64,000 nt of DNA, from positions 16,073,501 through 16,137,500 of the forward strand of contig JAYKKT010000086.1 in NCBI GenBank assembly GCA_036023115.1, written 5' to 3'. Under the pieces are notes generated by a model. The model had not been told where the DNA came from, did no database searches, and was given only the letters and a program-made list of their open reading frames with translations. Within the stretch, counting starts at the first letter, position 1. Every line of letters starts with the position of its first letter. This DNA comes from Brasenia schreberi. Lineage: Eukaryota; Streptophyta; Magnoliopsida; Nymphaeales; Cabombaceae. Shown one piece after another: positions 20,257-59,200 of this stretch. The translations under genes and the position numbers were made by a program.

Positions 20257-23200
20257 GCATACAAAAAGCAAACATTGCACTGCAAAATTTATTGGCTGAC
20301 AGATGTGGTGACTAATACCATATAGAGTATAGACATACGTAAGTCATATGATGACGGGATCACTTTCAACAGGTCCTACAATGATGAAACATAACCCATT
20401 GCAAATGCATTTTCATTATCTTTTTAGGTCCTCCATTGATGAGGGGATGCCTTTCAATTACTATAAAAACCCTCCCATGCCTAAGTTTTATCATCAAAAG
20501 AAGAAGAATGACTTCTGGCGTTCCCCACCTTAAAATAATAAAAATTTTAGTAACATAATTCTGATTGCTCATTTATGTCCAAAGTTCAAATTATTTTGCA
20601 ATTCCATAAGGAATGATTGTAGATTCTCCAAGCAACCATGGAGAACGCCGAACTTATAAATTAAATGCACGATGTCTGTCATTTGTATAATTTTGTGACT
20701 GAATTGAAACGAACTCTGCTCATGCAAGGGATTACCCTTGCATGATCAGTCCCAAGCTCAGATAAAGGAAGAGGGTTGTGTTAGGCTTCCAACAACCAGC
20801 GTAAAACATGTCGGATTTATCTATCATGGATTCTAGACATTATGAGTTTTGCGTTGAGACATCCACTTTTAACAACGAACTGCAGAGCCCAAATGTAGTG
20901 AAAAGTAAGCAAGGATCTCTATATATTCGCTCGAATATATTGAATCAATTGCAAAGAGGGTTTCTGTTAAAGACTAGATAGAATTTATATTTTTATCTTT
21001 AATTGTGTATTGGATAGATCACTTATCCAATAGGAGTCGGTTGTCCCCTTAATTACTTATCAAGGATATCTCGTTCTTAAGTTATAAACCTGTAAATTAA
21101 TACCCTAACTGTAATGCTGAAAGTTAAGAATAGAAAATAAGAGAGAGAGGATGGTTGAGGCGCCACCCCTCATTTGGAACTCGAGTTTCACTTCCTTTGG
21201 TATTTTCTGATTTTCTATCATTTGGGTTGTTAGTCAACATGATATCAAAGCCTAATCTATGAGATTAGAGCGATTTTTGGTGGTGTTGCAGTTTTTTTAA
21301 AGGTAAAAAGGTGTTTAGGGCAGCGTGGATCAGTTGTAGATTGAAGATAATCCAATCCGGTCAGTGTTACTTCAAGATATATTCATTACGAAAAAGAATT
21401 TCAGCAAAAGAAAGTAAAGAAATACATTAATCCTAGAGAAAGGCAATGTTTGTCATGTAACACAAAAGGAAAATGGTAGACAGTGGATAAAACATTATGT
21501 TAGACAAGGGAGAAAGATTTAAGATCACGAATTTAAAGTTAGATGGCAAAAAATAACTTCAATGGGCTAGATTTATCAAACTAGCTATAATGGAGAGAGG
21601 CCGATGGGATTATTTCACTGGAGACATTCCTACTCCCCATGTATCGGATCCTTCATACCCTAAATCATGTAGGAAAAACGTCCTCGTCAATGCGTGACTC
21701 ATCCAATCCATGACACCATTTATCGAGAGTACAATTATGTTTCTAGAGTCGGCCATATATATTTGGTTGGTTGTCAAGAATATAGCCAAGAAATATGAAA
21801 TTATCGAAAAGATTCGAAAATACAGACAAGGAGGAAGGTTAATGAGTGAGTACTACGTTGAACATTGTGGTTTATGGGAAGAAGTTCAATTTTACTATAA
21901 ACCAAATGTCAAAGTTGTATGAAAGAACAAAATAATGAGTTTAAAGAACGAAAAGTGTTTGCTCTTTTATAGGGTATCTCCTTAAGTACGAGGTTGTCAA
22001 AAATAATATCCTGAGCAGAGAGTTTCTAAAATTAACAAACTTTATTGATGTAAATATAAAAGAAAAACTTACAGATGGTGGCCGATTGGAGGCATTCCTC
22101 CAATCTGCCCTAAAGAGAGAACACACTGTTGAAGAATATGAGTTTAGAGTCGTTTGTAGTACATATAATGTCTTAGAACAGTAAAATTGATGTTTAGAGT
22201 ATTATTGTAATTGTCCGAAGTCGTAAGGGCATTTTGGTAATTTTATGTACTAGGGGGTATTTCGGTCATTTTACGTTTTACAGCTCCTTATATAAGGGCT
22301 GATAGACTGTATTAGGGTTTAAGTCATTGTGAGTAAGATAGAGAGAGAAAGAGGGGGGTTCCGATCTCCATTATTACTCTTCTTTTTTATTAATATTTTC
22401 TATTGTTTATTATCAGCTGCGTTTCTCAGCAATTACAACATGATATCAGAGCCTATAAGGCTGTTAGATCGAGTTTTTAAAGAAAAAAAAAATCATGTTG
22501 AGAGGGCGGCCAAGTTCTCTTTATGGTGGTTGCGATCGACGAATATGCAGTTGGGTAGCTCAAGAAAGTTTTGCACATCAGAGACAATATGCGGAAAGAC
22601 TATTTGCCTGCCAAGTCTGTAGGCATGCACGCCATGCTGCTGGACAGGTTCAAGACACCTGTTGCCAAAATCTGGAGGAACTCAGGTGCTCATGTTGTTC
22701 CTAATCTTGTGGTTGTTCAGGCATTTCTTACTGAAGAAGAGGTTTTGCATGAGCCTGCTAATGCAATATGATATGATTCATGTTCTTCATACTGCTTAGA
22801 GAGTTCATATTATAATGGTGAACCTGATTTTATTGGTAGAATAGTTGAATTTTTTAAAGGAATTGACAGCAAGAAATATTTTATGGCACTATGGTTTTAT
22901 AGAGCCCAAGATACAGTTATAAAGGAACATGCAAACCTCATTGATGATAGGCGTATTTTCTTATCTGAGATCAAAGATGAAAATTTAATGGACTGCATAG
23001 TCTCGAAAGTGAAGATTGTACAGGTTTCTCCAAATGTAAATTTGCAAGCCAAAGAGAGGAAAATTCCCACATGTGACTTTTATTATGACATGTTCTATTC
23101 GGTGCCATATTCAATATTTTCCACAACCTTGCCTGAGAATTTAGAGTCAAGTAAGTGGTTCATGTTCATCAATAACCACTGAAAGTGAAGGGAAGTAAGA

Positions 23201-26200
23201 TTCTGAGGGACAATCAAATAGTTCCAATGCCTATAGGTCTGAGCTAGCTTTGTTAGACTTGTATTCATGTTGTTGTGGTGCAATGTCTACTGGGCTTTGT
23301 CTCGAAGCTGGACTATTTGGTGTAAATCTTGTGACGAGGTGGTCTGTGAATATCAATGAATATGCTTGCCAAAGTCTCAACTAAATTATCCAGAGACATA
23401 TGGAAGCGATGGTGAACCTGAGGTGAACACGATAACTCATTTTCTGGAGACCCTACACATCCTGAAAATTGAAAAAGGAAGTTCTCAAGGAAGACAAAAA
23501 AAAAGAAAGGAAAGTGTTGGTTACCAGAAATTTTGGAAAGAAATATTTGATGTCAATCTTTTGAATATTAAATAATGGAGCTGGGAAAAATAAGATAGAT
23601 TACTTTCCTGATTTTATGGGACAGAAAACGAGAAAGGTAGTTATGTAATACCATCTTCCTGATTTAGTAGAGAAGATATAAAAAAGGAAAACTTATCTCC
23701 ACGTTTTTTTAGAAAAGGAAGAAAAGTGTAACTGCTGCCCATCTTCCTGATTTAGTGTAAATGATAAAATAAAAAAGGAAGACTTATCTCCACGTTTTTT
23801 AGAAAAAGAAGAAAAGTGTAACTGCTGCCCATCATCTTAATAAAGGAAGTATAGAAAAAGGAAAAGATAGAAAAATTGAGAAGGTGACAGAGAAGGCGTG
23901 CAGCTTTATCCATGATGCAACAACGGAAGGAACTTGTTTGCCAAACAACTATTGATCAATCACCTGGCCAAAGGAAGAAAGCACAAGAAGTTCATGTTGA
24001 AGTCTGAGATCAAGCTAAAGTGGAAACACACGGCCTGGAAAATGCTGCAATTGAAATTGACTCTGGTACACAAGAGTGCTCATGTATGAGCTCAATGCTA
24101 TCTAATAAAACCTCAGTTGAAGAGACTTGCTTACGTCAGCTTCAAGATGCGATCACACAGTTGAGTAATGCGACAAAACTGTGCATCAAAGACAGTTTAC
24201 ATCGTTAGCCAATTATTTACTCTTCCATCTTTTATATTGGGGTGTTGTCATCCGAGGCAACCAGTATAGAAGCATGTGAGTATCTGAAAATTATGGAAAA
24301 TGGTCGTTCCATAATAAAACCAAAGGATCTAGAGGATGCTGACATGCATCTAGTCATGAAAAATAATGCAGAATAGGCAGTATAAAGCGTCTGAGTAGGC
24401 AGACAATGAGTATGATTATGATGATGTTTCGGCCATTAAATCAAAGAAGAAACAGATGGCCATGAGAGATCATGTATCAATTAAACATCAAAATGTACTG
24501 AAGATGGTCTCAACTCAAGATGAAACAGAAGTTGCTGATCGAAAAGAAACTCAAGTATTGAAGAAGCATAAATATCAAAAAGAGATTGGAAGGATGAGAA
24601 GGGGAGAACAACGGCCTCTTATAGTTCTGACATAAATTTTTTGAAAAATGGAACCATAGAATTCATTTTTTTCTCCGTATCTTTCTTGTGGCTTCTATAT
24701 TAGCTATATGGTTACAATAGCTTTCCGCTCATTAGTTCTACCCTAATGAAATTTTAAATCTCTTACAATTGTAATGGATGACAACAGTAGTTCCATGGCA
24801 TCACAGTTTTCTCCTAGAGCATTCAGACGTCCTCAAATTTGCATTTCACCCACGTGAATTCTTAGGACAATGGCAGAATTTTGTTTTGTTGTTGGTGGAA
24901 TTAAATGCCCTGTTGGTGGAATTAAATGCCCTCAGATTACTCAGGAGCAAATAGTGAATGCATGCGGAGTGGAAGATGTTCATGATGGAACCAACTATTT
25001 CAGGATTGCCTGTGTTATTGTAGTTACAAAAGCCTGTGACACATTTGAGCCTTTTCTTCATCAGTTGGGTTTCAGACTGCTATACATTTTTGAAGAGACT
25101 GCTTCCCATCTCTGTATATCTACTGCAAAAAGGATAGAGAGCATTTAAGTGCTCACAACTTGTTTCTGAAGCGTGTTGAGTCTGCATCCAATACTTTTGC
25201 ATAATCTATTGAAAGAGCATGTCGCAGAAAATAAAGATGGATGATAAGGAAGGAACCAGGCTCTAGCTGGATTGAAGTCAATCAAGGGTTCATGTGCTCC
25301 TAGTTGAAGACTGCTCACACCCACGAACAACAGAAATCTATGGTAAATTAAAGAAGTTATCGACCTGGATGAAGGAACAAAAATATGTTCCAGACATGCA
25401 TGTGTTGCATGAGGCAAAAGAGGATATGTCTAAAAGTCTTTTTTTTTAAGGGTGATGACAATTGTCCAAGCAATTTCAACAGTGAAGAGGTGTTCCAATT
25501 AAAAGCAAATGATTGCAAGATTAAAACAACAGCGACTTCAATCTAGAGTTACTATAGTAAAGAGAAAAATATAAAGCAAGAAAGAAAAGGCAGCAGTGTA
25601 GGGCCCCAACGTTCAGTTGTGGACAGATTGGATGGAATGTCTCCAATCAGCTAATTCTTGAAAGTTTACAGAAAATAGGTAAATGCTAAAGGTTGCAGTC
25701 ATGAGGACTGCTGAAATGATTATATTTGCAGCCATTGAAAGTGCAGAAATTTACAGCTATGAAAGCTGTTGGAAAAGACAGTTGTGAAGGCAAAATTAAA
25801 TAGTTATTGCATCCATGAAACTGCTGAAAATGAAAAGCCAGGAAGGCTAAGTGTTGTAGCAAAGAAGATTGCTTGGAAAATGGACAGCTAAGGGGCTAAA
25901 AAAATTCAGAAAATGCATAAAATCAGTCTTTTTCACTACATATGCATGAAAATTAAATCATTGAAGAGGCCAGTGGAATTTGTTGATATAGAATGTGGCA
26001 GTATCACAAAGAATCATGAAAGTTAAGACCTTGAGTTGCTGAAGTAAACAGCCAAGAGGATTGGAAAAGCGGCTGCAGTCACCATGTGAAGAGGCGCAGA
26101 CCGACTAGTATGAGCAGATGTCTGTATTCTGCTATTTGAGTGGTAGAGAGAGGGCACCCAACCAACACACCGGCTGCAGCCACCATGTGAAGGGGCATAG

Positions 26201-29200
26201 AAAAAGCCGTGTAAAGTGTGTATGGTGGAGGAGTACCTCCTATCACAAAAGATCAGCTTTCTTAAGAACAGAAGAAACATGATTTTTAAGTGTAGCTGTC
26301 AAATCACTTTATGGAGAAGAAGAAAGAGAGGGGGAGCAATCGACACCCATAGAAGGGTCGGGTTGTTACCCATGTGTTCTTAATTGTTCAAATTGTTTTA
26401 CAGAAGCCTCAAAGAAATTACTAGTGCACGTGTGATAAAGAAAGTCATGAGATGATCAGCCAACAAGAAGGCTGAGTTGATGTTGCAGCTATAGATGCTG
26501 CTTGAGATGATCATTCAGGAGGGTTGAGTTGATGTTGCAGTCAGAGATGTTACTTGAGATGATCAGCCAGGAGGGCTGAGTTGATGTTGCAACCAGAGAT
26601 GCTGCTTGAGATGATTAGCCAGGAAGGCTAAGTTTATATTGCAGCCAGATATGCTGCTTGAGATGATCAACCAGGATAGCTGAGTTGATGTTGCAGCCAG
26701 AGATGCTGCTTGAGATTATTAGCGAGGAAGGCTAAGTTTATATTGCAGGCAGAGATGCTGCTTGATATGATCAGCCAGGAAGGCTGAGTTGAAGATATTG
26801 CAACCAAAGAAGTTGTTGAAAATTAAACCAGTGATGAAAACAGATGAAGAATGTTGCAGACAGATAGAAGATTTTTGGCAAGTTTGGAGTTCGAAGTATC
26901 TCACTCCCAACTTGAGGGGGGCGTTGAAGAATATGAGTTTAGAGTCGTTTGTAGTACATATAATGTCTTAGAACAGTAAAATTGATGTTTAGAGTATTAT
27001 TGTAATTGTTTGAAGTCGTAAGGGCATTTTGGTAATTTTTTGTACTAGGGGTATTTCGATCATTTATGTTTTACAGCTCCTTATATAAGGGTTGATAGAC
27101 TATATTAGGGTTTAAGTCGCTGTGAGTAAAATAGAGAGAGAAAGAGGAGAGGCGGCCTCCATTGGAGGTCCGCCCCCTCTCCTCCGATCTCCATTGTTAC
27201 TCTTCTTTTTTATTAATATTTTTTATTGTTTATTATCAGCCGCGTTTTTCAATAATTACAACACACACGGCTGCTCCTGTGCACCTTTTTCCAAAACACG
27301 TTTTTTGACTTGGACACCTATTTAAACCTAATCTAACTTGAATGACAAAAACACCCCTAATTAATCTTATCGATAACTAAGTGGACTGATACTACACTAG
27401 ACCCATATAATGACCCATTACACGACCCATTATCAAACTTTATAAAAGTTACATATACTTTATAAACTCTTCTAACACTCCCCCTCAAGTTGGGTGAAAG
27501 ATATTGAGAACACCCAACTTGAATAGTGTATCCTTGAGTTGTCTGCTAGCAATGGCTTTAGTCAAAAAATCAGCTCGATTTAACATACTCCAGTTGAAAC
27601 TCTTGAAGAGCAATCTTCTCTCTAATGAAGTGGCAATCAATTTCTATATGTTTTGTTCTTTCATGATATAGAGGGTTGGAAGCCATCTGAATTGCTGCAG
27701 TACTGTCACAGTATAGTGATATAGGATGTATAGGGTTGAATCCAAGTTCACTGATTAGAGAAGCTACCCATTTGCCTTCACACATTCCTTGAGTTATAGC
27801 TCTGTATTCGGCCTCAGCTGTAGACCTGGTGACTACTGTCTGTTTTTTTCTTTTTCATGATATAATATTTCCACCAAGTAAGGTTACATATCCAGAAGTT
27901 GATTTGCGATCATCTTGAGATCCAGCCCAATCTGCATCTGAATAAATTTTAATAATAAGCTGTTGATTATGTGATTTGGAATAAAGTAGGCCCATACCAG
28001 ATATTGATTTGAGATATCTTAGAATTTTATACACTGCATCCATATGTCTCTTAGTAGGAGAATGCATATATCCTCAAACCAAGCTCTTGGTGACCGCTTA
28101 GTCCATAAAGAGATTTCTGCAGCAAATATACCATACCTTCTCGATTGAACTTCCTTCAAAACATGGGGAACATCCATATACACTTCCTCCTCCAAATCAT
28201 TATTTAAAAATACATTCTTCACATCTAGTTGTTGTAAAGGCAGGCCTAGGTTTGTGGTAAGAGATAAAAGTACTCCGATAGTGTTCAACTTTACAATAGG
28301 TGCAAATGTCTCTAAGTAATCAATGTCATAGGTTTGAGTAAAACCTTTGGTAACCAATCGAGCTTTTATCTCTCAAGTGATCCATCCGACTGTATTTAAT
28401 GGTAAACACCCATTTGCATGCATATTCACGTTTACCTTTACGAATAGCAATAGGAATGTCTAAATCTTCTGTTGCTTGAGGATCTGAATTAGGGAAAATC
28501 TCTTTGGTGGTTTGATGTTGTATTGTTCTGTCTTGGAGATAAATAATGTTCCTTGATCCTCTCTTATACATCAGAATCTCTTTAGATTGATCTGATTCTT
28601 CTTCATTATCTCCAGCAATACTTTCTGTTTCACTAGGAATTAAAGGAAGAACATGCGGAGAATGATGCTGAGATATACTTGACTCTCCCTTGGAAGAATA
28701 ATATGGAGTAGATTCACTGAAGGTGACATCCAATGGATACATACAGTTTTTTAAGGATAGGATCATAGCATTTATACCCCTTTTGAGCATTTGATTAACC
28801 CAGAAAAATACACTTGATAGATCTAAGATCCAGTTTATCACGGTTAGGTAAATGAATATGTACAAAACATGAGCAGCCAAAGATTCGAGAAACTAGATGA
28901 AAAGGTTTTGAATTTTGATCCAGATATTTCATTGGACTTTCACCTTTGAGAACATTACTGGGCATCCTATTAATAAGTGAACAGTAGTAAGAACAACTTC
29001 TCCCCGATAACATTTAGAAACATTGCTTTGGAGTAGTAGGGTCCTGACAACTTCTAGAATATGACGATTCTTTCTTTCAGCAACACTATTTTGCTGAGGA
29101 GTATAAGAATAGGAAGTTTGATGAATAATACAATGTGTGTAAGTATGCTTGTAACTGTCTGCCAATATACTCCCCCCATTATCAGAATGTAATATTTTCA

Positions 29201-32200
29201 CAGAGGAATTGAATTGAGTAAGAATAAATTTATGCACGATTGAAAAAATAGTAGAAACTTCAAACTTTGAATTTATTAAATAAACGATTGTGAGATGAGT
29301 ACAATCATCAATAAAGGAAACAAAGTATTTATGACCAAAAAGTGAAGTAATTGGACTGGGACCCCCATATATCAGAATAAAGAAGTTCAATTGATTGAGA
29401 TCTCCTAGAGTCACTCAAAGGATAAGAGGCTCGTTGATGTTTTACAAGCTGACATACATCACATTCAAAATGTGGTTTATTTGACTCGACTTCTAAGATG
29501 AGGAATAACATAATGAAGTTTTGTCACAGGAAAATGACCCAGACAATAATGCCACAGACGAATTTCTGCATCCTGAACTGCTAGAGCTGAAGTGCTATAA
29601 GTTGCTGCATGCTGCAAATTATCCTCCAAGATGTATAATCCCCTTTGTAATCTACCACGACCAAAGATTTTCTTCGTCTCCAGATCTTGAAATACACATC
29701 CAGTAGAATCAAATGTTACTCTACAGTTTATAGTACGGGTTAATGCACTGACTGAAAGTAAGTTTATGGAAAAACTAGGAACATAGTAAACTGATTTTAA
29801 GTCTGAAAAACATATGGGTACACTTCCCTATCCAACCATATAAGTATTAGACCCGTCTGCCAGCTTAATCAGTTCATGTTTTTTAAGTGATCTGTATTCT
29901 GAAAAATATGATAAATTTCCCATGATAAATCTCCCACCATATGATCTATAACCCCTGAATCAATAATCCAAGCTTTGGAATTAGAAGGAGATGAATTATT
30001 ACCCTTCTCTGTATGAGTTGCTTGAACTACTGTAGCCTGTGATAAATGGGATGACGATGATTGAGAGTTTTCTGATAGCTTTGATTCCAGTGTTTCTATC
30101 CTTTTGATGATCTCTTGAATACCTTCTGTACAAGGAGTGGGAATTTCTGCAGAGTGTGCTGAGTAGTTTCGATTTCTAGTAAAATCAGGTCTCTCATTTA
30201 ATTCCCAACAATATTCTTTGGAATGTCTCGTTTTTCCACAATGAGAGCATACAAGCTTGTCTTTATCATCAAAGTTAAATCTTCATCGTCAGCGTCCTCT
30301 ATTGTGTTGTCCACCTATTCCACGATAATAAGTGTTGTCTTTTCTTGTTTGAATAGCATGTTGATCTGTAGTTGAAATACTATCTCTTTCAAGGTTTCTG
30401 CGATCTTCTTCTCTGATTAATAAAGAATATACTGAAGAAAGTTCTTCTCTACCCAAAATATTTAGTTTTATTGACTCAAACTATGAGTTGACACCCCACA
30501 GTAAATCAAAAACTTTCTTCTTTTCAATTTCAGCATATCTTTTTTTGTAACAAGAAGAGCACTTTATATTAGTAAAATAAAGAAGTTCATCCCAGAGTCC
30601 TCGTAAATCTGCATAGTATTCACTGATAGACTGCGTGCCTTGTTTACATTTTCTAATCATTTCTAATATTTCATATTCCTTTGCAACATTTTTCTTCTTT
30701 GAATACGCTTCTGAGACAACACACCAAATCTCATGAGCACATTCAAGAAACATAAAAGTCTTGGCAATTGATGGAATCATCAACTGTAATAACTAAGATG
30801 ATATTAAAGCATCATCTCTTCTCCAGGTAGGGTCAAGTGCATCATGAGTCTCTGGAATTGGTATTTGACCCATTAGGTGAGCCCATCTCCCCCTTGCAAT
30901 AATAGCTAGTTCTACTGATCTAGACCATTCCAAATAATTTCTGCCATCTAACTTAGTAGTTGTAATCCGAAAATTTTCTATTTTTTCCAAAGAAAAGGAT
31001 TGTTCACCAGTGTGGAAGGGACCAGTGTGGAAGGGATTGTCAATTCCTTTCCCTTTGCCAGCCATTGATCAAAATATAATGAAGATAATCTGATAGGCCT
31101 CCAATAATATGGTTAGTTTAATCAGCCGAATCAACTCAATATCTCGCCCTTTTGAATGTTAAACATACATCAATTTCTGAATCGGCAAGCCACACGAATC
31201 AGTCACACGATTTCCTTTTGAATGTTAAATATACCTCGATTTTCTGAATAAGCAAGACACAAGATAATCTGCACTTCAAAGAATCAGCCACAATCTCAAT
31301 GACTTAGCCACATAAAAGTCTATTTTCTGAATAAGCAAGTCACACGATAATGTGCACTACAAAGAATCAGCCACGATCTCAATGACTCAGCCACATAAAA
31401 GTTTGCACGACAATGAGTCTGCCACGATCTCAATGACTCAGCCACATAAAAGTCTGCACAACAAACAATCAGATGCACGATCAAGTATGCACGATAATGA
31501 GTCTGCCACGATCTCTTATTATAATTATCTATATTTCTGAATCAGCCACACACTCTCAAGTTATTATTCCGTCTGCACTATTATATTCTACACAATCATA
31601 ATGAATATCCAATCTCATATTCATCCACACGCCCTTCTGTTTCCTTCGCATCATAGTGATTCAAGGCGCTGATTTTCTTCTTCTAAACGATCGATTTGAG
31701 TGTTGTATAGGCTATGATACCATATTATAAAATTAACAAACTTTATTGATGTAAATATAAAAGAAAAACTTACAGACGGTGGCCGATTGAAGGTATTCCT
31801 CCAATCTGCCCTAAGGAGAGAACACATGGTTGCCCCTGTGCACATTTTTCCAATACACGTTTTCTGACTTGACGCCTATTTAAACCTAATCTAACTTGAA
31901 TGACAAAAACACCCATAATTGATCTTATCTATAACTAAGTGGACCGATACTACACTAGACCCATATAATGACTCATTACACGACCCATTATCAGATTTTA
32001 TAAAAGTTACATATACTTTATAGACTCTTCTAACAGAGAACTTTTATCGTTGAGTACGGTATACTCTCTACTCCTGCATGAAGAGGATAGAATTTAGAGA
32101 AATAAGGAAAAATCAGCCAAGAATTTATTGCATTTGTGGGCAAGAATGTTACTAATTCTTCAGGATCCAGTGGTAGAGGCATATCTCAATTTACTCCAGA

Positions 32201-38200: not shown

Positions 38201-41200
38201 CTTTCTGAGAATAGAAGTAATTCATAAAGATAATGGGCTATTCCTAAGTCAAAGGAAATATATCCTAGACTTACTAAAAGACACGAAAATGGAAGATTGT
38301 CGAATATGTTCCATCCCTATAGAAATCCTTAAAGAGGATACTCTTGAGTCTGCGGAACCCTATGAAGATATCAGTAAATACTAGAGACTAGTAGGAAAAC
38401 TGATATATGCGACTATCACAAGACCAGATATCAGCTTTGCAGTTGGATATGCAAGTAGGTGGATGCATAATCCTTCTAGATATCATATGAGTATGGTGTT
38501 TCATATTATCAGATATTTGAAATCCTCTATCACATACGGCTTGCTATATACTCCACAACCTAAACTGGATATAGAGATCTACTCAGATGCTGATTGGGCA
38601 GGTTCGAAGACCGATCGAAAGTCAACATCCAGATATGTAATACGCGTAGGAGGGAATATTGTATCATGGAAAAGCAAGAAGCAGTCTGTGGTAGCCAGAT
38701 CAAGTGCAGAAGCTGAATACCGAGCTATTGCTCTAGGTATGTATGAGGGACAGTGGATTATATCACTCCTAGAAGAAATTGGGTTCAAAGAACACTCTCC
38801 GATTACATTTTTTACGGATAGTAAAGCTGCTCTGCAGATAGCACAGAATCCAGTTTTTCATGAAAGAACTAAGCACATTGAGATTGACTGCCATTTTATC
38901 AGAGAAAAGATTTCCAAAGGGACTTTCAATCTTGTTCATGTCCGTTCTGAAGATCAACTTGTTCATGTCCGTTCTGAAGATCAACTGGCAGATATCTTTA
39001 CCAAACCAGCTTCAGTAAAAAGCCTTCAGAAAGCATTGTCACAGTTGAGAATCACAAGTCTTCCAGAGTCAACTTGAGGGGGCGTGTTGTGAAAAAACCA
39101 AGTTGACTTAGTGTTAGAGTATAGGTTGTAATTTGTGTTTTTTTATGTATGCAATAGTCGTGTATGATTTGGATCCCAATGGATCAGATTCTGATCCATT
39201 GGGACCCAAACTTTATTAGTTACTTATTAGGGGTAAAGTAGTCTTTTAAGTTAGATTAGCAGTATTTAAAGAGTCTTGTAATTAGGGTTAGAAGGTTAAC
39301 AAAAATTATGGACAGCAAGTGTGCAGGAAACGACTGCCTATGGCGCCGACCTGCATCCTCTTGTAATCTCCCTTGGTTCCAGTCTTCGTCAAGGAATAAA
39401 AATGTTTGTTTGAGTGCATAAAATCAACACTCAGTACCTGAATGATGGGTTTAGATAATAGGTTGTTGCATGAATAGGCTGATACAACAACAACAACTAA
39501 GCCTTTTCCCATACTAGACATGAATAGGCTGATGCAATTGTTTATTCCATCTACTATCAATTATTTTCCACACGGGCACATAATCTCTCTTTTTCCATTA
39601 AAGTTATTTCTGATCGCTTCTTTTTCCCTGTCCATGGCTTCATAAAGGTAGCCCATAGATGGTTTCTCCTCGCTGTCAGCCAATCTCAAAACTTTTACTA
39701 AAGGATAGGTAATTTTTAATAATCTAATACATGCATTCCAAAATGAACTTCTAAAAACTATTTCTGCAATCTCATTCAACTTTCTATTCCTTCTATTTTG
39801 AGGCAACTCTATAAATTGTTGCCACTCATCTGAGGAGAACATTCTCTTTAAAGCTTGCTTCTGTCTCACAATACTCTGTACAGATAAGAAGTTTGTTGCG
39901 AACCGAGTTGCAACTGTGCGAAGAAGCTCTGCACCTTCTCTGTATCTCCTCATTATACACAAAACAAATGCATGGTTGTAAATGAATTTTGTAATATCTT
40001 GGCAACACTCAATTGCTACCTTTATTTCATCCATCTCACCAATGTCCTCGAGAATGAGATCTAAACAATGGGTTGCACATGGTGTCCAGTAGAAAGTCCC
40101 ATAAATATCAGCTAACTCATTCCCAGCTGCTTTGTAGTTAGTTGTATTATCTGTAATCAATTGGACTACATTTTCTAGTCCAACCTCCTGTATAACCTTA
40201 TCAAATTCCTGTCGTAGGATCTCTGCAGTGTGCCTCTCATCTAACATATCTAGAGATCTTAAAAACATGAGTCCTTTAGGACAATATACAAGAAAGTTTA
40301 GCAATGTCCTTCCTCTCCTATCGGTCCATCCATCTGCCATGATAGTGCATCCCGTTTCCTTCCACGACTGTCTCAAAGTCGAACAATATTGTTGTACTTC
40401 AATGACGGTCTAATCTAATATCTTCTCTCTCAACTTCTGATAAGAGGGCATCCTGTATCCTGGACCAATGTTAGCAATTGCATCTGCCATTGTTTGAAAA
40501 TGAAAATTGTTTGCTGCATTAAATGGAATGCATGCATCATAAAACCATCTTTCCACTGTAAGGTCTGCCTGATCATGGAGTTGTTCTGAAGCTATAGCAG
40601 CACGAATTCTAGGTTGACCACCAGGTGTAGTGGAAGGAGGAAAGAACGAATGTATGGTAGAAGAAGTTCTTCTTCTACTCCTTCCTGAACTTCCTCTTCT
40701 GCCACCTCCAAAGTCTTCAGCTGCAACCCTTTTTTCCCTGCTAGGTGCTCGCAAACTGCTACTACCAATCTCTGTTTTAGCATCTGAAGGCAAACTATCA
40801 GAGAATCCAACTCCAGTGGCAGTAGCATCATCAACTTCTTTACACATCTGGAAATCATCCTTTTGTTGTCTCATTTCCTGTATGCTCTCAATCATAGCAT
40901 TGCCATTTAATACCTTCTGGCACACTTCTAACTCTGCCTGTGCATGGAGCAACTTCTTTCCTGGTTCCTTCTAGGTGGTGTTTCAATCTTGAAATTCCAC
41001 CACTAACCACCTTTTCACAAAATAAGCATCTAATCTTTAACCTGGAACCCTCAACTGGTATACCCCAGTGCCATGTCGGATCATCAGACCGATAATGGGA
41101 GTCTCTATCACCCCTTCCTGCCATCTCAATCGAGTACTTTAATTCAAGCAAAAACCTGAAAATAAAAGCACTTCGTAAACACCCAAATCTTCAAATAACA

Positions 41201-47200: not shown

Positions 47201-50200
47201 GCAACTCTTCCTTTCATTCCTTATGTCCTACAAAAAGGCAATTTCACGTACCTTTGAGGGTGTTTGGGTGCACATGTTTCGTACACATATATAGCAGTCC
47301 TAGAGATAAACTTGATACGAGAGTTGTCAAGTGTATCTTCTTGGGTTATTCTTCCATTCAGAAAGAGTATAAATGTTATGATCCTGAAAAAAGAAAATCA
47401 TATATTACTATGGATGTGACTTTCCATGAAGATATGTTGTTTTATGGTGGTAATGACGGTCATTTATCAAATCAACCTACACCAATTGTATTACCAATTC
47501 TACTTTTCGAAGAGCATCATAAGATTGACAAAGAAGAGGCTACCGTACCTCTAGAAGAAAGAAGATGGCAAACGTATTCTAGAGGTGAAAGAAAGATGTT
47601 TCTCTCAAGTCTTAATGTTACCCTAGATCTGAATTCTCACCCTTAATTAGCTCCTATTTCAACCAAGGTCTCCTTTGATCTCTTCTAGTGGTAATGATGA
47701 TTTACCTATTGCTCTTCGGAATGAAAGCGTGAAGCTGCAAAATAATCTATACAGAAAATGGTTTGATATACTAATTATCCAAAAGAGTATCAGTTGTTTG
47801 TGATGAATACAAATAATACGTATATTCCCAAAATATTTGAAGAGGCCAAACAAAATTCATATTTGAGAGCAGCAATGAAAGAAGAAATCAGAGCATTAGA
47901 AAAGAATCAAACTTGGGAACTTACAGATCTACCACGAGAAAGGAAAATTATGGGTTGCAAATGTTGGAATTAATGAGAAACGCAGCGGATAATCAATAAT
48001 AGGAAACATCGATAAAAGATAAGAGTAAACAATGGAGATTTGAATGGGGGCAGGCCCTTCAATAGAGGTCACCCCCGTCTCTTTCTCTCTCTATATTAAT
48101 CATACTCTTAACCCTAATACAAACTTCCAGCCCTTATATAATGGGTTGTAAACAGAAAATTACCAAAATGCGCTTAGTATTCCAGGCAATTACAATAATA
48201 CCCAACTATTAGAAATTACCGAAATAACACTTAAAACACAACATATATATATATATTCTCAACACCCCCCCTCAAGTTAGGAGTGAGATACTTCGAACTC
48301 CAAACTTGCCGAAAAATAGGTTCTTTCTTCACCACAAGTGCACTAATGATCTCTTCGAGGCTTCTTTAAATCAGCTTGAACAATCAAGAATACTTGGGTA
48401 ACACACGACCCTTCTATGGATGTCGGTTGCTTCCTCTTTCTTCTTCTCAATGAAGTGATTCGGCAGCTTTACTTCAAAAGTCATGTTTTTCTACTTTTGA
48501 GAAAGTTGATCTTTTGTAATAGGAGGTACTACTCCACCATACACACTTCACACGACTTTTCCTGTGCCCCTTCACATGGTGGCTACAGCCAGTGTGTTGG
48601 TTGAGTGCCCTCTCTCTACCACTCAAATAGCAGAATACACACGTTTGCTCATACTAGTCGGTCTGCGCCCCTTCACATGGTGACTGCAGTCGCTTTTCCA
48701 ACCCTCCTTATTGTTTACTTTAGCAACTCAAGGTTTTAACTTTCATGCTTCTTGGTAATACTGCCACATTCCATACCAATCAATTCCTCTACCCTCTTCT
48801 AAGATTTGATTTGTCATGCATATGTAGTGAAAAAGACTAATTTTTCTGCATTGTATCTTTCTCTTCTATTTCAAATTCTCCTGTTTCACCAAATAAGAAG
48901 ACACTTACTACGTACGACTTCATATTTTTTGCTCTTTTTTTTTTGAATTTTTCAGCCCCTTGGCTGTCCATTTTCCAAGCAATCTTCTTTGCTGCAACAC
49001 TTTTTCAACAACCTTCATGGTTGCAATATTCTTCAACTTAGCCTTCCTAGCTTTTCATCTTCAGCAGCTTCATGGATACAATAATTTTCAACAGTTGCTT
49101 GACTGCAACAACTCTTGAATTCAGCTTTCATGGTTGTCTTTTTCAGCAGCCTTTATAGCTGCAAATTCCTAAAACTTCAATGCCTGCAAATACAATCATT
49201 ACTTTTGTCTTCATGATTGTCATCTACCTTCTCTTCAGCGGAGCAGTCGAGTCAGAAAAATTGTCATCCCTCTCTTTCCTCAGGCGTGCAGTTACAACGC
49301 TTGGGGAATGGCCTGTACTAGCCACTTCGTCATTACCAGCATCGTCATCTGAGCATAGAAGAGCTTCTAGATCTTCAGTGTTCTCATGCATCTCACTTTC
49401 TTCGTCATTGGGCACCAAAAATTTGCTTTCCTCCCAACTAGTTTGGTCTGATGTATGATTAGCAATAGCGGGCACATCTTGGTTGAATCCAAGAGGTGGA
49501 GGCATAGGGCCATTGGGTGAAGTTTGGTTTGTTAATGTGTTGTGTTAATGTGCTTTGTGTTAATGTGTTGTGTCGTGTGAGTCATGTCAAGTCTAAATGA
49601 TTAATGGGTTGTGTCATGTATCGTGGAGTTGAGTTTGTGGCCCAATGGATCTGGATCAGATCTATTGGGAACCGTATTCATGCTTAGGGTTAATTATGTC
49701 TTTTAAGTTAGATTAGGTTTAATATAAAGCCAGAGAGTCATTAGGGTTAGAGTAATAAGAAAAATCTTGCGACAGCCAGAATCAGTGGCCGAGTATGTCA
49801 GAGATTCAAAGGATGATTAATAAAGTTCTTTTCTTCAACTTTCATCAATGAAATATGTGCAAAAGAAGCAATATGGTATCAGAGCATAGGACGTGAATAC
49901 AGAGGCCTGCTTAATCACAAGTAAGTTGATACATTAGTTTTCTGCATAGTTAATGAAAAGAAGACTATAAATTCATCACACAGTGTGTCAATATCAAGAG
50001 GAGATCAGTGACAGCGGGTGATAGGAAACCCTAATCAGTCATTGAAACTGAGTGACAGACGTTGATTCACATTTGAGAATCGTCAATATCATCACTAATC
50101 GCAAGTCAGATTAGTGACAGACATTGATTCACAAGCCACAATCATATTCTAGTTGGTTATTATCAATCGGCCACTGAAGAGAATCGTTAATATGAATAGA

Positions 50201-53200
50201 CAGCAAAATTTTGAATCACAAGTTGTTGTGGAATGTTGTAAGATATTGACTGAATCATCAATATCACCACAAGTAGCAGTGGAAAGTGTTGTGAGACATT
50301 GATTGAATTGTCAACATCACCATCCACCATTGATAACAACCTGCAAAAACAAAAGGGAGTATTAGAAATATCAAGCAAAAGTCGGCTGAACAAATATAGA
50401 GATATTACTGAAACGTGTACAGCTATCATCATCAAATAGAGTATCAAGAAATCAAACCCTAATACCCGCAAGTCTTGATCAAGATGGATGACAAATTGAA
50501 AGAGGAAACTATGTCAACCATTTATGGACAGGATCAGAAGATTGAACCATTCCAAATCACAAACATTCGGTTAGATGGAAGAAATTATAGGGAATGGGCC
50601 AGGTCTATTGAACTTTTATTACGATCCAGAGGAAAATCTTAGATTATCAGATAAAATTCAGCACCTCTAGAAGGAAGCAGTGCAGACTATGAAAAGTGGG
50701 TTAAAGAAGATGCTCTTGTAAGTTTATGGCTAATTTAATCCATGAACCCATCTATCAATAAAACTTTTATGTATATGGAATCAGTTGCTGACATTTGGAC
50801 TGTAGTAGAAGAAGCTTATTCTAGACAGAAAAATATTGCAAAAGAATACGAGATTATTGAGAGGATTAGAAAATATCCTCAAGGAACCAGATCAATAAGT
50901 GAGTATTATGGGAAACTGCATGAACTATGGAATGAACTATGGAAAACAAATGCAGTCATTGTGTAAAAGAGAACAACTGAAGCTGAGATTCGAAAAGTGT
51001 TTGATCTGTTATGGGGAGTTTCATCAGATTATGAATCTATCAAATTAAACATTCTAAGCAAGGAAGAACTTCCGTCACTAGGAACAGTATACTCACTTTT
51101 ATTAAGGGAAGAAGACAAAAAGAATTTAGAGAAAGGCGAACATATACAAGTTAAAAAATTTGTATTTGTTGGTAGAGGACAGAGTAATTATCAGAGAGGA
51201 AGAGAATCATTCAGAGGCAGAGGAAGAGGCAGGAATCAATATTATGATGATAGAAGCAAACTCCAGTGCACACATTGTGGAAAGAAGAGATACACAAAAG
51301 AACAATGTTGGAAAATTATTGGAAAACCTACAGAATATAGAGATTATGGCAGGAAACCAGAGATTATGGTAGTCATGTGGCAACCATATCTGAAAAGAAG
51401 GCTGAAATGAAACCAATAAATGAAGTGGCAGAATTAAAGAAGCAGATTGCAGAAATTGAAACACGTTTGTGAGATCAACCTTCAACTTCCTCATCAAAAA
51501 CATAATCAAGTCCTCCTACTTCATACAGTATCAGTGGTAATTACTCATTTAAAGATTCTTCAGTCCTTTCTAATTGGATAATATATTCAGGGGCTACTGA
51601 TCATATGGTAGAAAACAAATCTAAGCTCATGCAGTATGAAGCAAATTCAAACCCTCAATATGTAAAAGTTGCAAATGGTTCGTTGATTCCTATGGCAGGA
51701 AAGAGAATATTTCAGAAAGATAATCTCAGACTTAATTCAGTGATATATATTCCAGAGTTTCCTATAAATCTACTTTCAGTAAGTTCATTGGTTAGAGATA
51801 TGAATTGTACAGTTACATTTTCTCCATATTGCTGTGTTTTTCAAGATTTTAAGACAGGAAGAATCTTTGGTCGTGGTGAACTATGCAATGTACTATATAT
51901 ACTATCTGGAGATCAGATTCCAAAACATCAAAGAGCATTGGCAACTTGAAGAAGAAATAAAGATTTGGCATAGTAGAATAGGACATTTGCCTGTTTCAAA
52001 ATTGAGAGAACTTATTTCTATTCCAATTCCTAATGATGTGGTAATTCAATGCGATGTATGCCAAAGAGCAAAACATCATAGAGCTACTTTTCCTAGTAGT
52101 AATTCAAGATCAGTTGTTCCTTTTGAGTTGATACATTCAGATGTTTGGGGGCCATGTGTGATACCTTCTGTTAGAAATTTTAAATACTTTGTTACATTTA
52201 TTGATGATTTTTTCAGACTTACATTTGTTTATTTAATGAAGTCTAAGTCAGAAATCTCTTCTATTTTTCCTCTGGTTCATAATCTTATCGAGACTCAGTT
52301 TGGATATACTTTTAAAACACTCATATAGGATAACGGTGGAGAATATTGTAATACTCAATTGGAATCGTATCTTCAATCTCATGGTATTTTACATCAGACA
52401 TCTTGTGTTTATACACCATAATAGAATGGAGTAGCTGAAAGAAAGAATCGACATATTTTGGAGATTGCTAGAACTTTACTCTTTGAGCATAATGTTCCAA
52501 AATATTTCTTGCCTCAGGCAATTCTTACAGCAGTATATATCATGAACAGAATTCCAACTGTTACTCTTACAGGAAAGTCACCGTTCAAGATGATTAAGCC
52601 AGAGGATAATCCATTCCATATTATTCCAAGAATATTTGTATGTGTCTGCTATGTGCATGTTCACCAGCAGTTTAGAGATAAACTTGATCCAAGAGCGATA
52701 AAATATATTTTCATTGGATATTCTTGTGAGAAGAAAGGATATATATATATTATGATCCTAAGTCTCATAAAAGATATATTTCTATGGATGTAACTTTCTT
52801 TGAAACTACTTACTCCATACTACAACAATCATAATGATATTTCCAATTCTACTCTCAAAGAATAAGTTGTTCTGCCCAGGATCAGTGGAAGTGAAGAATC
52901 AGAGGAAGGAAACTCTCTTACTGGAACAGATCAAATTCAAGAAGACAAAGGAATACAAGTATACCGAAAGGGGGAGAGAAATATTTTTATGAAACAACAA
53001 ACTCAGATGATGAATCAAGGGGGAGAAACAATATATGCTTCAAATGACAGTATAGAAGGTTCAAATAATGAGAACCTAGATGACTCAGATGTTCCCATAG
53101 CACTCAGAAAATGAAAGAGATCATGTCGTAAATATCCAATTTCGTAGTTCATATCTTATGATCGATTATCAAAAGGTTATCAGAAATTTGTGTTAAAGGT

Positions 53201-56200
53201 TGAGATGTATCAAATTCCAAAAAATTATTTTGAAGAATCTAAAGACAAGCAGTGGGTTGAAGCTATAAAGTCTGAAATTCAAGCATTAGAAAAGAATCAA
53301 ACTTGGGAACTCACTGATCTACCATAAGGTAAAAAAGCAGTCTCATGCAAATGGGTATATACAATAAAATATAAAGCAAATGGTTCATTAGAAAGATACA
53401 AGACAAGGCTAGTTGCACGAGGATATAGTCAAGCATATTGGATTGATTATGAAGAGACATTTGCACCAGTAGCTAAACTCACATCGATACGAGTTATTTT
53501 CAGTATCGCAGCTCAAAGAAATTGGGTAATGTGACAACTAGATGTGAAAAATGCTTTTCTACAGGGAGAACTCAAAGAAGAAGTCTATATGGAATTACCA
53601 CCAGGATATCCAAATCCAACGAAACAGGTATGTAGATTAAGAAAGGCTATCTATAGGTTAAAACAATCTCCAAGAGATTGGTTTTAAAAATTCAGCAGAA
53701 GTATTATAAACTTAGGATATAAAAAGAGTGTAAGTGAGCATACGCTTTTCTTTAAGAAAGGAGACAAATTAGCTTTACAATTAGTATATGTGGATGATAT
53801 TATTGTAACAGGTGATGACATTGAAGAAATTCAGAAATTAAAGAAGGAACTTCATCGGTTATTTGATATTAAGGATCTTGAAAGATTATACTATTTTTTA
53901 GGCATTGAAGTAGCCTATTCAGGATGTGATATATTTTTGAATCAAAGAAAATACACACTAGATCTTTTGCAAGAAGTAAGAACGGAAAATTGCAGACCCA
54001 CATATACTCCAATAGATGTGAATCACAAGTTACAACTGGAGGATGGAGCTGAGAGAGTAGATGTGACCAAATATCAGCAATTGGTTAGAAAATTAATATA
54101 TTTGACCATCACACGTCCAGATATAGCGTATGCAGTGAGTATAGTAAGCAGATTTATGCAATCTCTATCTACGCATCACATGGATGTTGTGTTTCACATA
54201 TTAAGATATCTGAAAACAACTCCTGCACATGGAATCACTTACAAAGTTAATGGTCACACCAATATTGAAATTTATACAGATGTTGATTGGGCAGGTTCAG
54301 CAGAAGATAGAAAGTCTACCACAGGATATATAACATTGATTGGAGGTAACATAGTTTCATGGAAAAGTAAAAAACAGTCGGTAGTAGCTAGATCAACAGC
54401 TGAGGTGGAGTACAGAGCAATAGCATCAGGTACATGTGAAGGAAAATGGTTGAAATCTTTACTGATGGAAATGAATTTATTTACTGGAAACACTATACCT
54501 ATATTCTATGACAGCAAAGCAGTTATTCAGATAGCGTCAAATCCGGTATACCATGAAAGAATAAAATATATTGAGATAGATTATCATTTTATTCGGGACA
54601 GTGTACATGCAAAAGAATTTCAGTTAGAACATGTGCAATCAGGACATCAATATGCAGCCATGTTGACTAAAGCAGTTATCAGAGACATACTACAGAGATT
54701 GTGCAGCAAGTTGGGTGTAACATCCATCTTTCACCCAACTTGAGGGGGAGTGTTAATGTGTTGTGTTAACGTGCTTTGTGTTAATGTGTTGTGTCGTGTG
54801 AGTCATGTCAAGTCTAAATGATTAATGGGTAGTGTTATGTATCGTAGAGTTGAGTTTGTGACCCAATAGATCTGGATCAGATCCATTGGGAACCGTATTC
54901 ATGCTTAGAGTTAATTATGTCTTTTAAGTTAGATTAGGTTTAATATAAAGCCAGAGAGTCATTAGGGTTAGAGTAATAAGAAAAATCTGGCGGCAGCCAG
55001 AATCAGTGGCCGAGTATGTCAGAGATTCAAAGGATGATTAATAAAGTTCTTTTCTTCAACTTTCATCAATGAAATCTGTGCAAAAGAAGCAATATGGTTG
55101 GCATATTCAAGTGGCAGCGGTGGAGACAGTGAGTTAATTGAACTGGTAAACATGCTTCTATGGCTTCCTGATTGATCAAACACTATGAATTTCTTCTCCG
55201 AACTTGATGGTCCGAATAATGGTGCTCCTAAATCAAGCTTCTTGAGTTGTAAACGGCAATCATAAGAAGATGCTTTGAGACCCTCCTGATGAAATGCACC
55301 TGAAGGCCGAACACATGGGTTATGGCATTGACTATGCAACGACTGAAGCTGCCCATTTAGAATCTGATGAGAATCAGTTGCAAAACCATGAATTGCACAT
55401 AAAGCTGGACCTAAATTGGAATAACAACAGGCATCGCCAGCAGGATAAACGGTGCCATTGATCGATCTGAGCTCATGATCAGATGGCAAGCCTATGTAAC
55501 TCCACGCAGGAAACTGCCATGGAGAATGGCCAAATAGTCCTGAACAATAGTCCTTTGACATCAGATCCGATAAGGTGGAGGGGAATAAAAAATGGTCGTT
55601 GTGTAATTGAAGGAATTGAATGAGGTGATTAAAAGTTCAGAACTCCCATTGTGGTAGAGCTTTGCGTGATGTATGGCTTCCTTATTATTCGTTCAGAAAT
55701 ATAAGCAGAGCATAACGGACTGGTTTCAACAAATGGCAGAAGTACTCAGCCTGACAGTCCTGAAGAGGTTGAAAGCAAGCTATTACTCTAACAATGATAG
55801 TTGCACTCCCCGAGGCTGCAACCTTTCCACTGAGGAGTAGATTCGCCTGTGAGAATTGCTTCATTTACCATTGCACTTTCTGTGAGCAAAAGCATATCAA
55901 AATGGCATTGTCTACGTGGCATGCACAAATCATTGTCCACATGGCATGCACAGATCACTGTCTTATATGGAAATTGAGCAGTGAATCTATCCATCGTAGG
56001 ATTTTTAGGATAGGGCGGCCTTCCTTTTTCACGACAGCCCATAAAATCTGGGATAGACTATACTTTCTATCATTTCTTTTTCTATAACAACTTTCTTTAT
56101 CCGGGTCCCTTTTATCTTATCCTTTCCACCAAATCAGGAAAATAAGTTTTCATAACTATCTTTCTGGTTTACTTTCTCATACAATCAGAAAAGGAAGTTT

Positions 56201-59200
56201 TCATAACTACTTTCTGGTGTGTTGTCCCACAAAATCAGGAAGTAATTTGGAACTTTACTTTTCCAGCATTTGATTATTAAAAAAATTGAAATTACCTTTC
56301 GCAAAAGATTAAAATCTTCCTTTCTAAGATTTTGTGTAACTTCTCTTTTGAAAAAAAAATATAGGCACCATCATTATTTTTTGGCATCCAATCACCTTCC
56401 CTTTTTCATCTTCTTCTTCTTCTTTCTTTTGCATTTGCATCCTCCTCCATGGCTCCACGAACAGACCCTTTGGGCGAGAAATTCCCCGCTGCTGAAACAG
56501 ACAGCCATTCTTGTTGATTCTAGGTCCATTATTGTGTGGAGAAGAGTCTGCTTCAGTTCTTCCGTATTCTCCTGATAAAACCATGGAAAGGCTGTAGCAG
56601 CTTGAACCACCATCCCTTCCATGTCTTTCTTCCTCTCACACCAAAAATGTCGTATCAAATCTAGGTAATCCAAATCAAGACTATTCCCCAACCACTTCTA
56701 TAAAGAGAGCTACACCGACCTAGACAGCAAAATCATGGTCCAAATATAGCATACATCTGCACTGCCAAGATAACCATAACAAAATGTAACAACTAAAACG
56801 TTGCAGGACATCCTTCCCACCACGATGCACCATAATTGTCTGACTGTCCACCCTTACTCGCCTAAGCTCACTAAGTGTTTTCAGTCGACTCTTGGCCATT
56901 GTTGACTCAAACATAAATAGCATGAACAAGGTGAACAGACTATAGTACCAATATTCATCTAGGCACCAAAGACCCACACAAAAGACCTGGAATACAAAGA
57001 AAGGCTCCATACAATGCTCTTTCATCGATTTCTGGAATGTTTCATCAGCACTCTGGTCTAGAAGAAACTTTCGCGTTGGCTAACGTCTCTTTGATAATGA
57101 TGTTCAACTCCTCAATGGGACAGCAACAGGAAGTACACAACATCACCCATGGTCAGCTGCTCCTCTCAGCAGCACTGTCAGACAAAAGTAGCATCACATA
57201 AACATTGGCAGCAACCAGCCGACACATCTTTGTTGTCATACGACAGCCGTAACAACATGATATTTCCTTCAAAACATGATCTAACAGCCTTATAGGCTCT
57301 GATACCATGTTGAAATTAACGAGAAACGCAGCGGATAATCAATAATAGAAAACATCGATAAAAGATGAAGAGTAAACAATAGAGATTTGAAGGGGGACAG
57401 GCCCTCCAATGGAGGCCGCCCCTCCTCTCTTTCTCTCTCTATATTAATCAAACTCTTAACCATAATACAAACTTCCAGCCCTTATATAATGGGTTGTAAA
57501 CAAAAAATTACCAAAATACCCTTAGTACTCTGGGCAATTACAATAATACCCAACTATTAAAAATTACAGAAATAACACTTAAAACACATATGATACATAT
57601 ATTCTCAACAGCAGATAGGTGTAAAAAGTAAAATAAAACGCTGATAAAAATATAGAAAGATACAATGTCAGGTTGGTAGCTAAGGGCTATAGTCAATCAT
57701 ATTGTATTGACTCTACCGAAACATTTGCACCGGTTGCTAAAATGAAAACCATTAGAATTCTTCTAAGTGTGATAATTAATAAATGATTGGAATTATGACA
57801 ACTGGATGTAAAAAATACATTTCTTCAAGGAGACCTTATTGAAGATATTTACATGAACTTACCTCTAGGCTATGATCAAGGGAAGATGTCACAGAAGGTA
57901 TGCAAACTAAAAAATCTATTTATGATTTAAAACAATCACCAAGAACCTGGTTTAAAAAATTTATTGGTGGTATTCTTGGTTTGGGTTTAAAACATTGTAT
58001 TAGTGATCACACGTTATTCATCAAGCAAGATAAGATCATTCTCTTAATCATGTATGTCGATGACATCATTATTATTGGTGATGATGTGGAAGGAATTGCT
58101 TCCTTGAAAAAACAGCTATATGTCTTATTTGTTTTAAAAGATTTGGGAAAATTATACAATTTTTTGGGATTGAAATTGTTCGAAATAAAGGTTGGTTGTT
58201 CTTAAGCGAAAGAAAATATATCCTCGATTTGTTGGATGAGACAAAGATGAAAGATTGTCGTGTATAATCTATCCCTATTGAAATTCAAAAAGAAGTTGCT
58301 AGAAATTCTAATGAACCCTGCGAAGATGTGGGCATATATCAAAGATTAGTGGGAAAACTTATATATCTCACGATTACAAGACCTGATTTATGCTTTGTAG
58401 TAAGTTATGTTAGAGATGGATGCATTCACCATCTAGACACCACATGAATATTGTTTTCCATATCATTAGATATTTGAAATCATCCATCACTTGATATTGA
58501 AATTTATTCCGATGTTGATTGGGTTGGTTCTACAGATAATAGGAGATCTACTTCAGGCTATATTGTATGCCTGGGAGGTAATGTTGTTTTATAGAAGTGT
58601 AGGAAACAATCTCTCATGGCTAGATCAAGTGCAGATGTTGAATACCGTGCTATTGTCCTTGGTATGTCTAAGGGTTTATGAATATTATCATTAATGGAAG
58701 AAATTGGCTTTAGGAGAAACTCTCCAATCAATTTCTTCATTGTTAGCAAGGTTGCTCTTCAAATAGCTTCTACTTTAGTCCTTAACGAGAGAACAACACA
58801 TTGAAGTGAATTGTCATTTTATTCGAGAGGTGTATCAAAGAATTTTCAACCTTATTCATGTTTGTTCAGAAAACCAATTGGCATATATTCTTAGCTGCAA
58901 ATGGGCTAAAGAGAGCCCTTGTCAAGTTGTGTATTTTCATCATTCAAGACCCAACTTAAGGAGCATGTTAAAGACTAGCTAGAATTTATATTTCTGTCTT
59001 TAATTTTTTGTATTGGATAGATCAACCTCATTCATGTTTGTTCAGAAAATCAATTGGCAGATATTCTTAGCTGCAAATGGGCTAAAGAGGGCCCTTGTCA
59101 AGTTACATATTTCCAGCATTCAAGACCCAACTTAAGAGGCATGTTAAAGGCTAGCTAGAATTTATATTTCTGTCTTTAATTTTTTGTATTCGATAGATCA

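Follow-up and report, generated by a model that had tools for sequence, protein, structure and literature searches.

The published elements that come closest to the one considered here are the retrotransposons in which pieces of host genes lie between two long terminal repeats (LTRs). For example, Bs1 of maize is an LTR element with three host genes (PMC13317346, a review from 2026), of which only exons are present (PMC4717578), and the soybean element GmaRetroS15, a terminal-repeat retrotransposon in miniature (TRIM), is described as having exon-only pieces of three genes, both LTRs and a 5-bp target site duplication (TSD) (PMC4717578). In a stretch of 64,000 nucleotides from Brasenia schreberi (assembly GCA_036023115.1, contig JAYKKT010000086.1, positions 16,073,501 to 16,137,500 of the forward strand; hereafter the window, in whose own numbering all positions are given), a further LTR retrotransposon, element X (22127-27263, 5,137 bp), is found on the forward strand, together with a sister, element Y (57610-47962), on the reverse strand. 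It is likely that X belongs to a non-autonomous LTR family, probably of the Copia type, in which a fixed non-coding frame is combined with a replaceable cargo derived, in sense orientation, from spliced host mRNAs.

Gene pieces within LTR pairs are common, having been reported for 425 elements in maize and for 672 genes in rice and 1,343 in sorghum (PMC2774510, PMC3726574). In pepper, about 72% of the retrocopies of nucleotide-binding leucine-rich repeat (NLR) genes lie in LTR elements without gag/pol coding potential, for which the capture of spliced mRNA, helped in trans, has been proposed, with two or three genes in some single elements (PMC5664825). As far as the text of the maize survey describes its LTR elements, none has more than one captured gene (PMC2774510), and neither the capture of at least four host genes by one LTR element nor a layout in which one frame carries swapped cargo was found in the literature searched, which left out most subscription papers and supplementary tables.

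Compared by description, X is similar to Bs1 in that pieces of several unrelated host genes (a chromomethylase or CMT, the dynamin ARC5 and a DYW-type PPR protein) lie between its LTRs, and differs from it in the genes themselves, which are at least three and probably five, and in the existence of a sister copy with other cargo in the same frame. The gene-carrying TRIMs of soybean measure 1,172-1,449 bp (PMC4717578), whereas X is beyond the size of a TRIM, has a repeat array towards its 3' end and probably holds more genes; in contrast to the pepper NLR genes, which as a group are under purifying selection (PMC5664825), its pieces are short, decayed and drawn from unrelated genes. Nor is the cargo of X bounded by the terminal inverted repeats of a Pack-MULE or similar element, as no inverted pair of at least 20 nt has both arms inside X. 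X is a somewhat extreme case of a known phenomenon, and what is new is the number of cargo genes and the frame with swapped cargo in Y. The initial annotation had presented X as an unusual LTR element and perhaps a new family, and Y does show that there is a family, whereas LTR elements with three host genes, or without gag-pol, are already in print (PMC13317346, PMC4717578, PMC5664825).

The 5' LTR of X (22127-22440, 314 bp) runs from TGTTG to AACA and has a TATATAAG box at 22289, and the 3' LTR (26922-27263, 342 bp) begins with C instead of T. Both LTRs of a single insertion should start out identical, and this pair is now 93.6% identical over 312 aligned bases, with 19 transitions against 1 transversion, one indel of 30 nt and two single-base gaps; the bias towards transitions would match what is expected of methylated, silenced DNA. 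The 15-base word around the TATATAAG box, with up to two mismatches, occurs four times in the window, where 0.11 occurrences are expected, and always in the LTRs of X or Y. A hairpin-like stretch of 30 nt is present in the 3' LTR of X (27150-27180), with a similar one in the LTRs of Y, and is missing from the 5' LTR of X at about 22358.

The 5' LTR is adjoined by a primer-binding-site-like TGATATCAGAGCC and a leader (22441-22507) common to Y; the TGATATCAGAGCC motif is presumably the usual plant site for the initiator tRNA-Met, with one mismatch, and the primer binding site of a neighbouring element, at 21240, is nearly identical to it. At the other end of the interior (26862-26921), a G-rich polypurine tract, GAGGGGGG, lies directly before the 3' LTR. 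The whole is flanked by the TSD CACAC (22122-22126 on the left and 27264-27268 on the right), which is represented by a single copy, CACAT, in an empty-site paralogue: the flanks of X (22024-22131 and 27263-27477) match a contiguous LTR at 31725-32035, and the excision of X with one TSD copy kept yields an alignment of 311 bases to that LTR, at 93.6% identity and with one gap. The restored match and the single CACAT indicate that X was inserted into an LTR belonging to an older, minus-strand element. X thus has the paired direct LTRs with TG...CA ends, short TSD, primer binding site and polypurine tract of an LTR retrotransposon.

Between these ends, no gag-pol was detected. When 12 open reading frames (ORFs) taken as gag-pol, from other elements of the window, were compared with the two elements by tblastn, a single match was obtained in X (E 0.25) and none in Y at E ≤1, and two control loci were matched strongly, one of them partly through self-match; four of these query ORFs have a Pfam retroelement domain, one was checked and has none, and the others were taken by their likeness to these. 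X has 47 sense and 66 antisense frames of at least 25 residues, and the 20 and 11 of these, respectively, that were scanned in Pfam yielded no retroelement domain. X therefore compares with the LARD-like (large retrotransposon derivative) non-autonomous LTR elements, in that no gag-pol is detected by scans that could miss a very diverged gag. The clear LTRs, primer site, polypurine tract and perfect TSD that the initial annotation had claimed are borne out by the alignment and the empty site, as is its statement that the interior is without retrotransposon proteins by the negative tblastn, with its positive controls, and by the Pfam scans of these frames.

Some faint likenesses were set aside as chance, namely Gag_p12 in Y (49227-49529, E 0.11) and foreign names in X at E 0.03-0.2 (Gemini_mov, PSMalpha and others), and Rfam gave no match over the whole window at gathering scores. 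Copia-type domains are present in several ORFs that belong to other elements of the window, and none of those elements has the LTR of X.

The best-supported cargo piece of X is the chromomethylase piece (22781-23440, outer ends read by eye), which covers the BAH domain, the linker and the start of the methyltransferase. Within it, 568 nt (22814-23381) are co-linear with 186 residues (146-331) of a Victoria cruziana protein (P0001; E 3e-47), where identity is 72% for the BAH domain and 64-65% from the linker into the start of the methyltransferase, and where the damage amounts to a frameshift, a stop codon and a gap of just one codon (an extra residue). The Victoria protein is unnamed and has the chromomethylase domain set, its nearest listed relative, from Nymphaea colorata, being named CMT3-like, and the piece also matches the plant structure 4fsx (PDB E 1e-32 and 2e-12), which we take to be maize ZMET2. 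Among the 11 CMT proteins compared, for which 48 candidates were scored and from which closer plants may be missing, those of Victoria cruziana (74%) and Nymphaea colorata (73%) are the closest, followed by five at 60-62% and four at 43-53%, which points to a water lily or one of its kin as the probable source plant. As the piece is equidistant from these two, which are 84% identical to each other, the capture is either old or from a paralogue.

The second piece, a dynamin of 368 nt (24864-25231), corresponds to residues 456-570 of a dynamin from Victoria that bears no specific name (P0014; tblastn E 1e-30), and has a 21-nt tandem duplication at 24890-24931, a frameshift and stops. It was identified with a typed, joined query, from the best 120 of 366 matches; the specific dynamin names among these are all ARC5, so the label DRP5A given to it in the initial annotation was wrong and is corrected to ARC5/DRP5B. 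The alignments of X with seven of the matched proteins all land on this piece, the protein from Victoria being marginally the closest of the seven (83%, against 78-81% for the others). As dynamins fill the best 120 matches, this search is neutral on the HAD, LNK, DUF1635 and SAC51 names discussed below.

Only a few nucleotides further on, as read by eye, lies the piece of a DYW-type PPR protein (25234-25446, start by eye), from the E+ region, of which 25276-25446 corresponds to the PPR-DYW structure 9kfx (PDB E 1.6e-8, match at 25282-25440), with a Pfam hit to the E+ motif PF20430 (E 2e-4) that is under its cut-off. Two further pieces were proposed. A REG-2-like HAD hydrolase at 22559-22768 is moderately supported, by a match to the C-terminal end of NCBIfam TIGR02252 (E 4e-4, positions 178-203 in a model of 203), with a score far under the curated cut-off, a Pfam Hydrolase_like value of 0.14 and a best PDB value of 0.72; the stretch 23888-24205 has a motif presumably of the LNK (night-light-inducible) type and is listed as a possible piece. 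Taken together, the cargo of X includes at least three host genes (CMT, ARC5 and PPR), and probably four or five, with more than one unrelated gene between the LTRs as in Bs1; of the five pieces first claimed, the chromomethylase, dynamin and DYW-PPR stand, the hydrolase does so moderately and LNK, for which no search gave a match, is unconfirmed. The stretches 24205-24860 and 25446-25696 of X may be untranslated or unrecognised captured pieces.

Element Y, which was found by a blastn search of the window with X, has its 5' LTR at 57308-57610 and its 3' LTR at 47962-48264; in an alignment of 302 bases these show 91.4% identity, and their flanks, TCTGC and TTTGC respectively, differ by one mismatch. 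Its primer binding site, TGGTATCAGAGCC, and leader (57246-57307) match the leader of X. In all, the two elements have four interior blocks in common: a central and a 3' tract, together with the leader at one end of the interior (64 columns, 80%) and the stretch before the 3' LTR at the other (63 columns, 90%). The central tract has a tandem repeat of about 90 nt in X (23550-23836), of which 23550-23725 matches the tract of Y (56074-56292) at 67-70%, and the 3' tract (25696-26444 in X, 48323-49219 in Y) is 64% identical over 282 columns and then 86% over 536 columns (25912-26444 against 48323-48852). It is followed in X by an array of 6.6 tandem copies of 52 bp (26448-26792), to which only short related stretches correspond in Y.

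By contrast with these blocks, the cargo of X has no match in that of Y at E 0.01. The first piece in Y (56813-57040) is from a P5A-ATPase and corresponds to residues 193-268 of 8op3 (PDB E 1.8e-24), with P5A-type or endoplasmic reticulum helix translocase chains at E 5e-20 to 2.5e-22, against only 2e-5 for chains named P5B, and NCBIfam TIGR01657, whose family name refers to ATP13A2, at E 2.5e-27. A second P5A piece (55824-55910; residues 296-321 of 8op3) matches TIGR01657 at E 1.1e-7, Pfam E1-E2_ATPase at E 7e-4, under its cut-off, and PDB chains at E 0.08-0.65. The two pieces, nearby in one protein, flank the central tract and a possible N-terminal piece of DUF1635 (56500-56568; Pfam PF07795, E 0.022), which is unproven because antisense controls reach E 0.017, 0.036 and 0.08.

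A longer piece of Y (55100-55864, resuming at 49529-49227) holds an upstream open reading frame (uORF) at 55688-55864 and a coding start at 55561-55100, its open reading extends over 154 codons and a further 101, and we take it to be a putative SAC51-like bHLH mRNA from motifs of its uORF and protein. On this tentative identity, the cargo of Y apparently includes a conserved SAC51-type uORF and the start of the main coding frame. Neither Pfam nor NCBIfam matched this piece, a text search for the expected uORF and LNK peptides found no paper, and the letters of the uORF peptide were not found in PMC2075485 either. The interruption in the piece is a younger element on the forward strand (49530-55098, borders approximate by a few bases), whose LTRs are 96.8% identical and whose domains include a reverse transcriptase and a gag-pre-integrase.

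The different pieces at corresponding places in X and Y require that the shared frame has had two or more separate histories of cargo. The 3' tracts differ by a K of 0.155 and the LTRs by 0.32, and the greater divergence of the LTRs means that there is constraint on the 3' tract or else recombination in the copies. As causes of this conservation, an RNA fold is unsupported in the core of about 230 nt (z -1.46 in X and -0.83 in Y) and a protein is rejected, since none of the three sense frames has fewer than 7 stops in X or in Y (range 7-13); a word from the 3' tract has no match in viral contigs.

How the cargo was acquired may be judged from its introns and orientation. There is no insertion longer than one codon across the 568 nt of the CMT piece, and the ARC5 piece is co-linear with 115 residues save for its tandem duplication and frameshift, with no intron-sized insertion. 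In other plants, CMT3 of diploid Cyclocarya paliurus has 20 introns (PMC10226219), the CMT groups of cotton have 10-24 exons, with 21-24 in two of the four groups (PMC11036760), and for the cytosine methyltransferases of eggplant 9-21 are given as the count of exons or introns (PMC6785084). With 20 introns over a protein of 860 residues, or about one per 125 nt, several would be expected in a genomic piece of 568 nt, and none is present.

The genes for which databases give support, four in X (CMT, ARC5, PPR and HAD) and one in Y (P5A), all run in the sense of their element. In a coin-toss model the chance of this is 1 in 32, or 1 in 256 if LNK, SAC51-like and DUF1635 are counted. Among the antisense frames scanned in Pfam as a control, 11 of 66 for X and 10 of 21 for Y, the best value was E 0.017. 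The sense bias and the apparent absence of introns together argue for capture at the RNA level, during minus-strand synthesis, and not at the DNA level.

In such a mechanism, the RNA of the element would be packaged in the particles of a helper element and host mRNAs would be packaged with it, the reverse transcriptase would jump between templates and leave pieces of mRNA in the cDNA, and later rounds would carry this cargo along while its pieces decay. The capture of mRNA by template switching is the account that fits best. What the initial annotation had said of the pieces is thereby upheld as to their sense orientation, for those with database support and with the antisense scans as control, and the lack of introns that it suggested is likely for the aligned CMT and ARC5 stretches; its proposal of template switching onto cellular mRNAs is the best fit to these two features. 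No host function is suggested for the cargo, because both X pieces aligned to parent proteins (CMT and ARC5) carry frameshifts and stops.

A number of points weigh against a family with a fixed frame and spliced, replaceable cargo. The swap of cargo is read from two copies, both in one window, in which no helper that shares the LTR of X was found, and the frame may itself be recombinant, given the K values of its LTRs and 3' tract. The loss of parental introns is deduced from co-linearity and the intron counts of other species. Furthermore, the order of the P5A pieces in Y is unexplained by the simple insertion of one piece of mRNA, and the names LNK, SAC51-like and DUF1635 are without confirmation by search, LNK having no match in Pfam or NCBIfam.

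A more ambitious version of the family reading, which we put forward tentatively and with the balance somewhat against it, is that of a 'Pack-LTR' lineage, in which the leader, central and 3' tracts would be kept as a scaffold for the recruitment of a helper and two intervals would be refilled repeatedly with pieces of spliced mRNA, so that each copy is a different multi-gene cDNA mosaic.

The alternative that survives best is a single capture of an old chimeric transcript or retrogene that has been passed on ever since, X and Y being distant relatives with one or two captures between them and no habit of it; this is doubtful, while remaining the most serious competitor. With a clock of 1.3e-8 substitutions per site per year, taken from PMC5664825 and not a rate of this plant, X would have been inserted about 2.6 million years ago (LTR K 0.068) and Y about 3.5 million years ago (LTR K 0.092), and their 3' tracts would have split about 6 million years ago (K 0.155). 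Set against the LTR divergence of X, the identity of only 73-74% between its CMT piece and the Victoria and Nymphaea proteins indicates that the cargo probably predates the insertion, which agrees with a single old capture, as does the fact that capture events are uncountable from two copies. It accords less well with the position of the pieces, which in X stand both before (CMT) and after (ARC5 and PPR) the central tract, with unrelated pieces in the corresponding places of Y.

Capture at the DNA level, in which a Pack-MULE, CACTA element or Helitron with genomic gene fragments inserted in an ordinary LTR element that later lost gag-pol, is distinctly improbable. In maize, such elements do account for most of the captures reported, with 1194 in Helitrons and 462 in other DNA elements against at least 189 in LTR elements (PMC2774510). 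In X, however, neither the CMT stretch (568 nt) nor the ARC5 stretch (368 nt) has an intron-sized insertion, every database-supported piece is in the sense of the LTRs, the cargo lies on both sides of a central tract common to Y, and none of the three inverted pairs of at least 20 nt in 21000-28500 has both arms inside X, Helitron ends not having been searched for. Finally, spurious gene likenesses or a misassembled X can be dismissed as extremely improbable. HAD, LNK and DUF1635 are weak and the antisense strand also gives Pfam E values of 0.017-0.2, but the E values of CMT (3e-47), ARC5 (1e-30), PPR (1.6e-8) and P5A (2e-24) already refute chance for these genes, including the three of X for which the initial annotation had allowed for it, and the LTR pair, TSD and empty site of X are mutually consistent.

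Elsewhere in the window, a 271-codon ORF on the reverse strand (39561-40376) has a DUF659 domain (Pfam E 6e-51), which presumably marks a hAT-type transposase.

LTR elements that have captured several genes seem to be rare in the literature surveyed, as far as its texts describe, with three genes in Bs1 and in the soybean TRIM and two or three in pepper. As two related elements in one window of 64 kb, with one frame and different cargo, X and Y would form a direct test bed for template switching, through the microhomology at the junctions, the sense bias, the abundance of the mRNAs and the part of the frame that serves packaging. If true, the 'Pack-LTR' lineage would be the LTR counterpart, at the multi-gene scale, of the Pack-MULEs and the gene-collecting Helitrons, and X and Y would be a further origin of chimeric gene mosaics in this plant.

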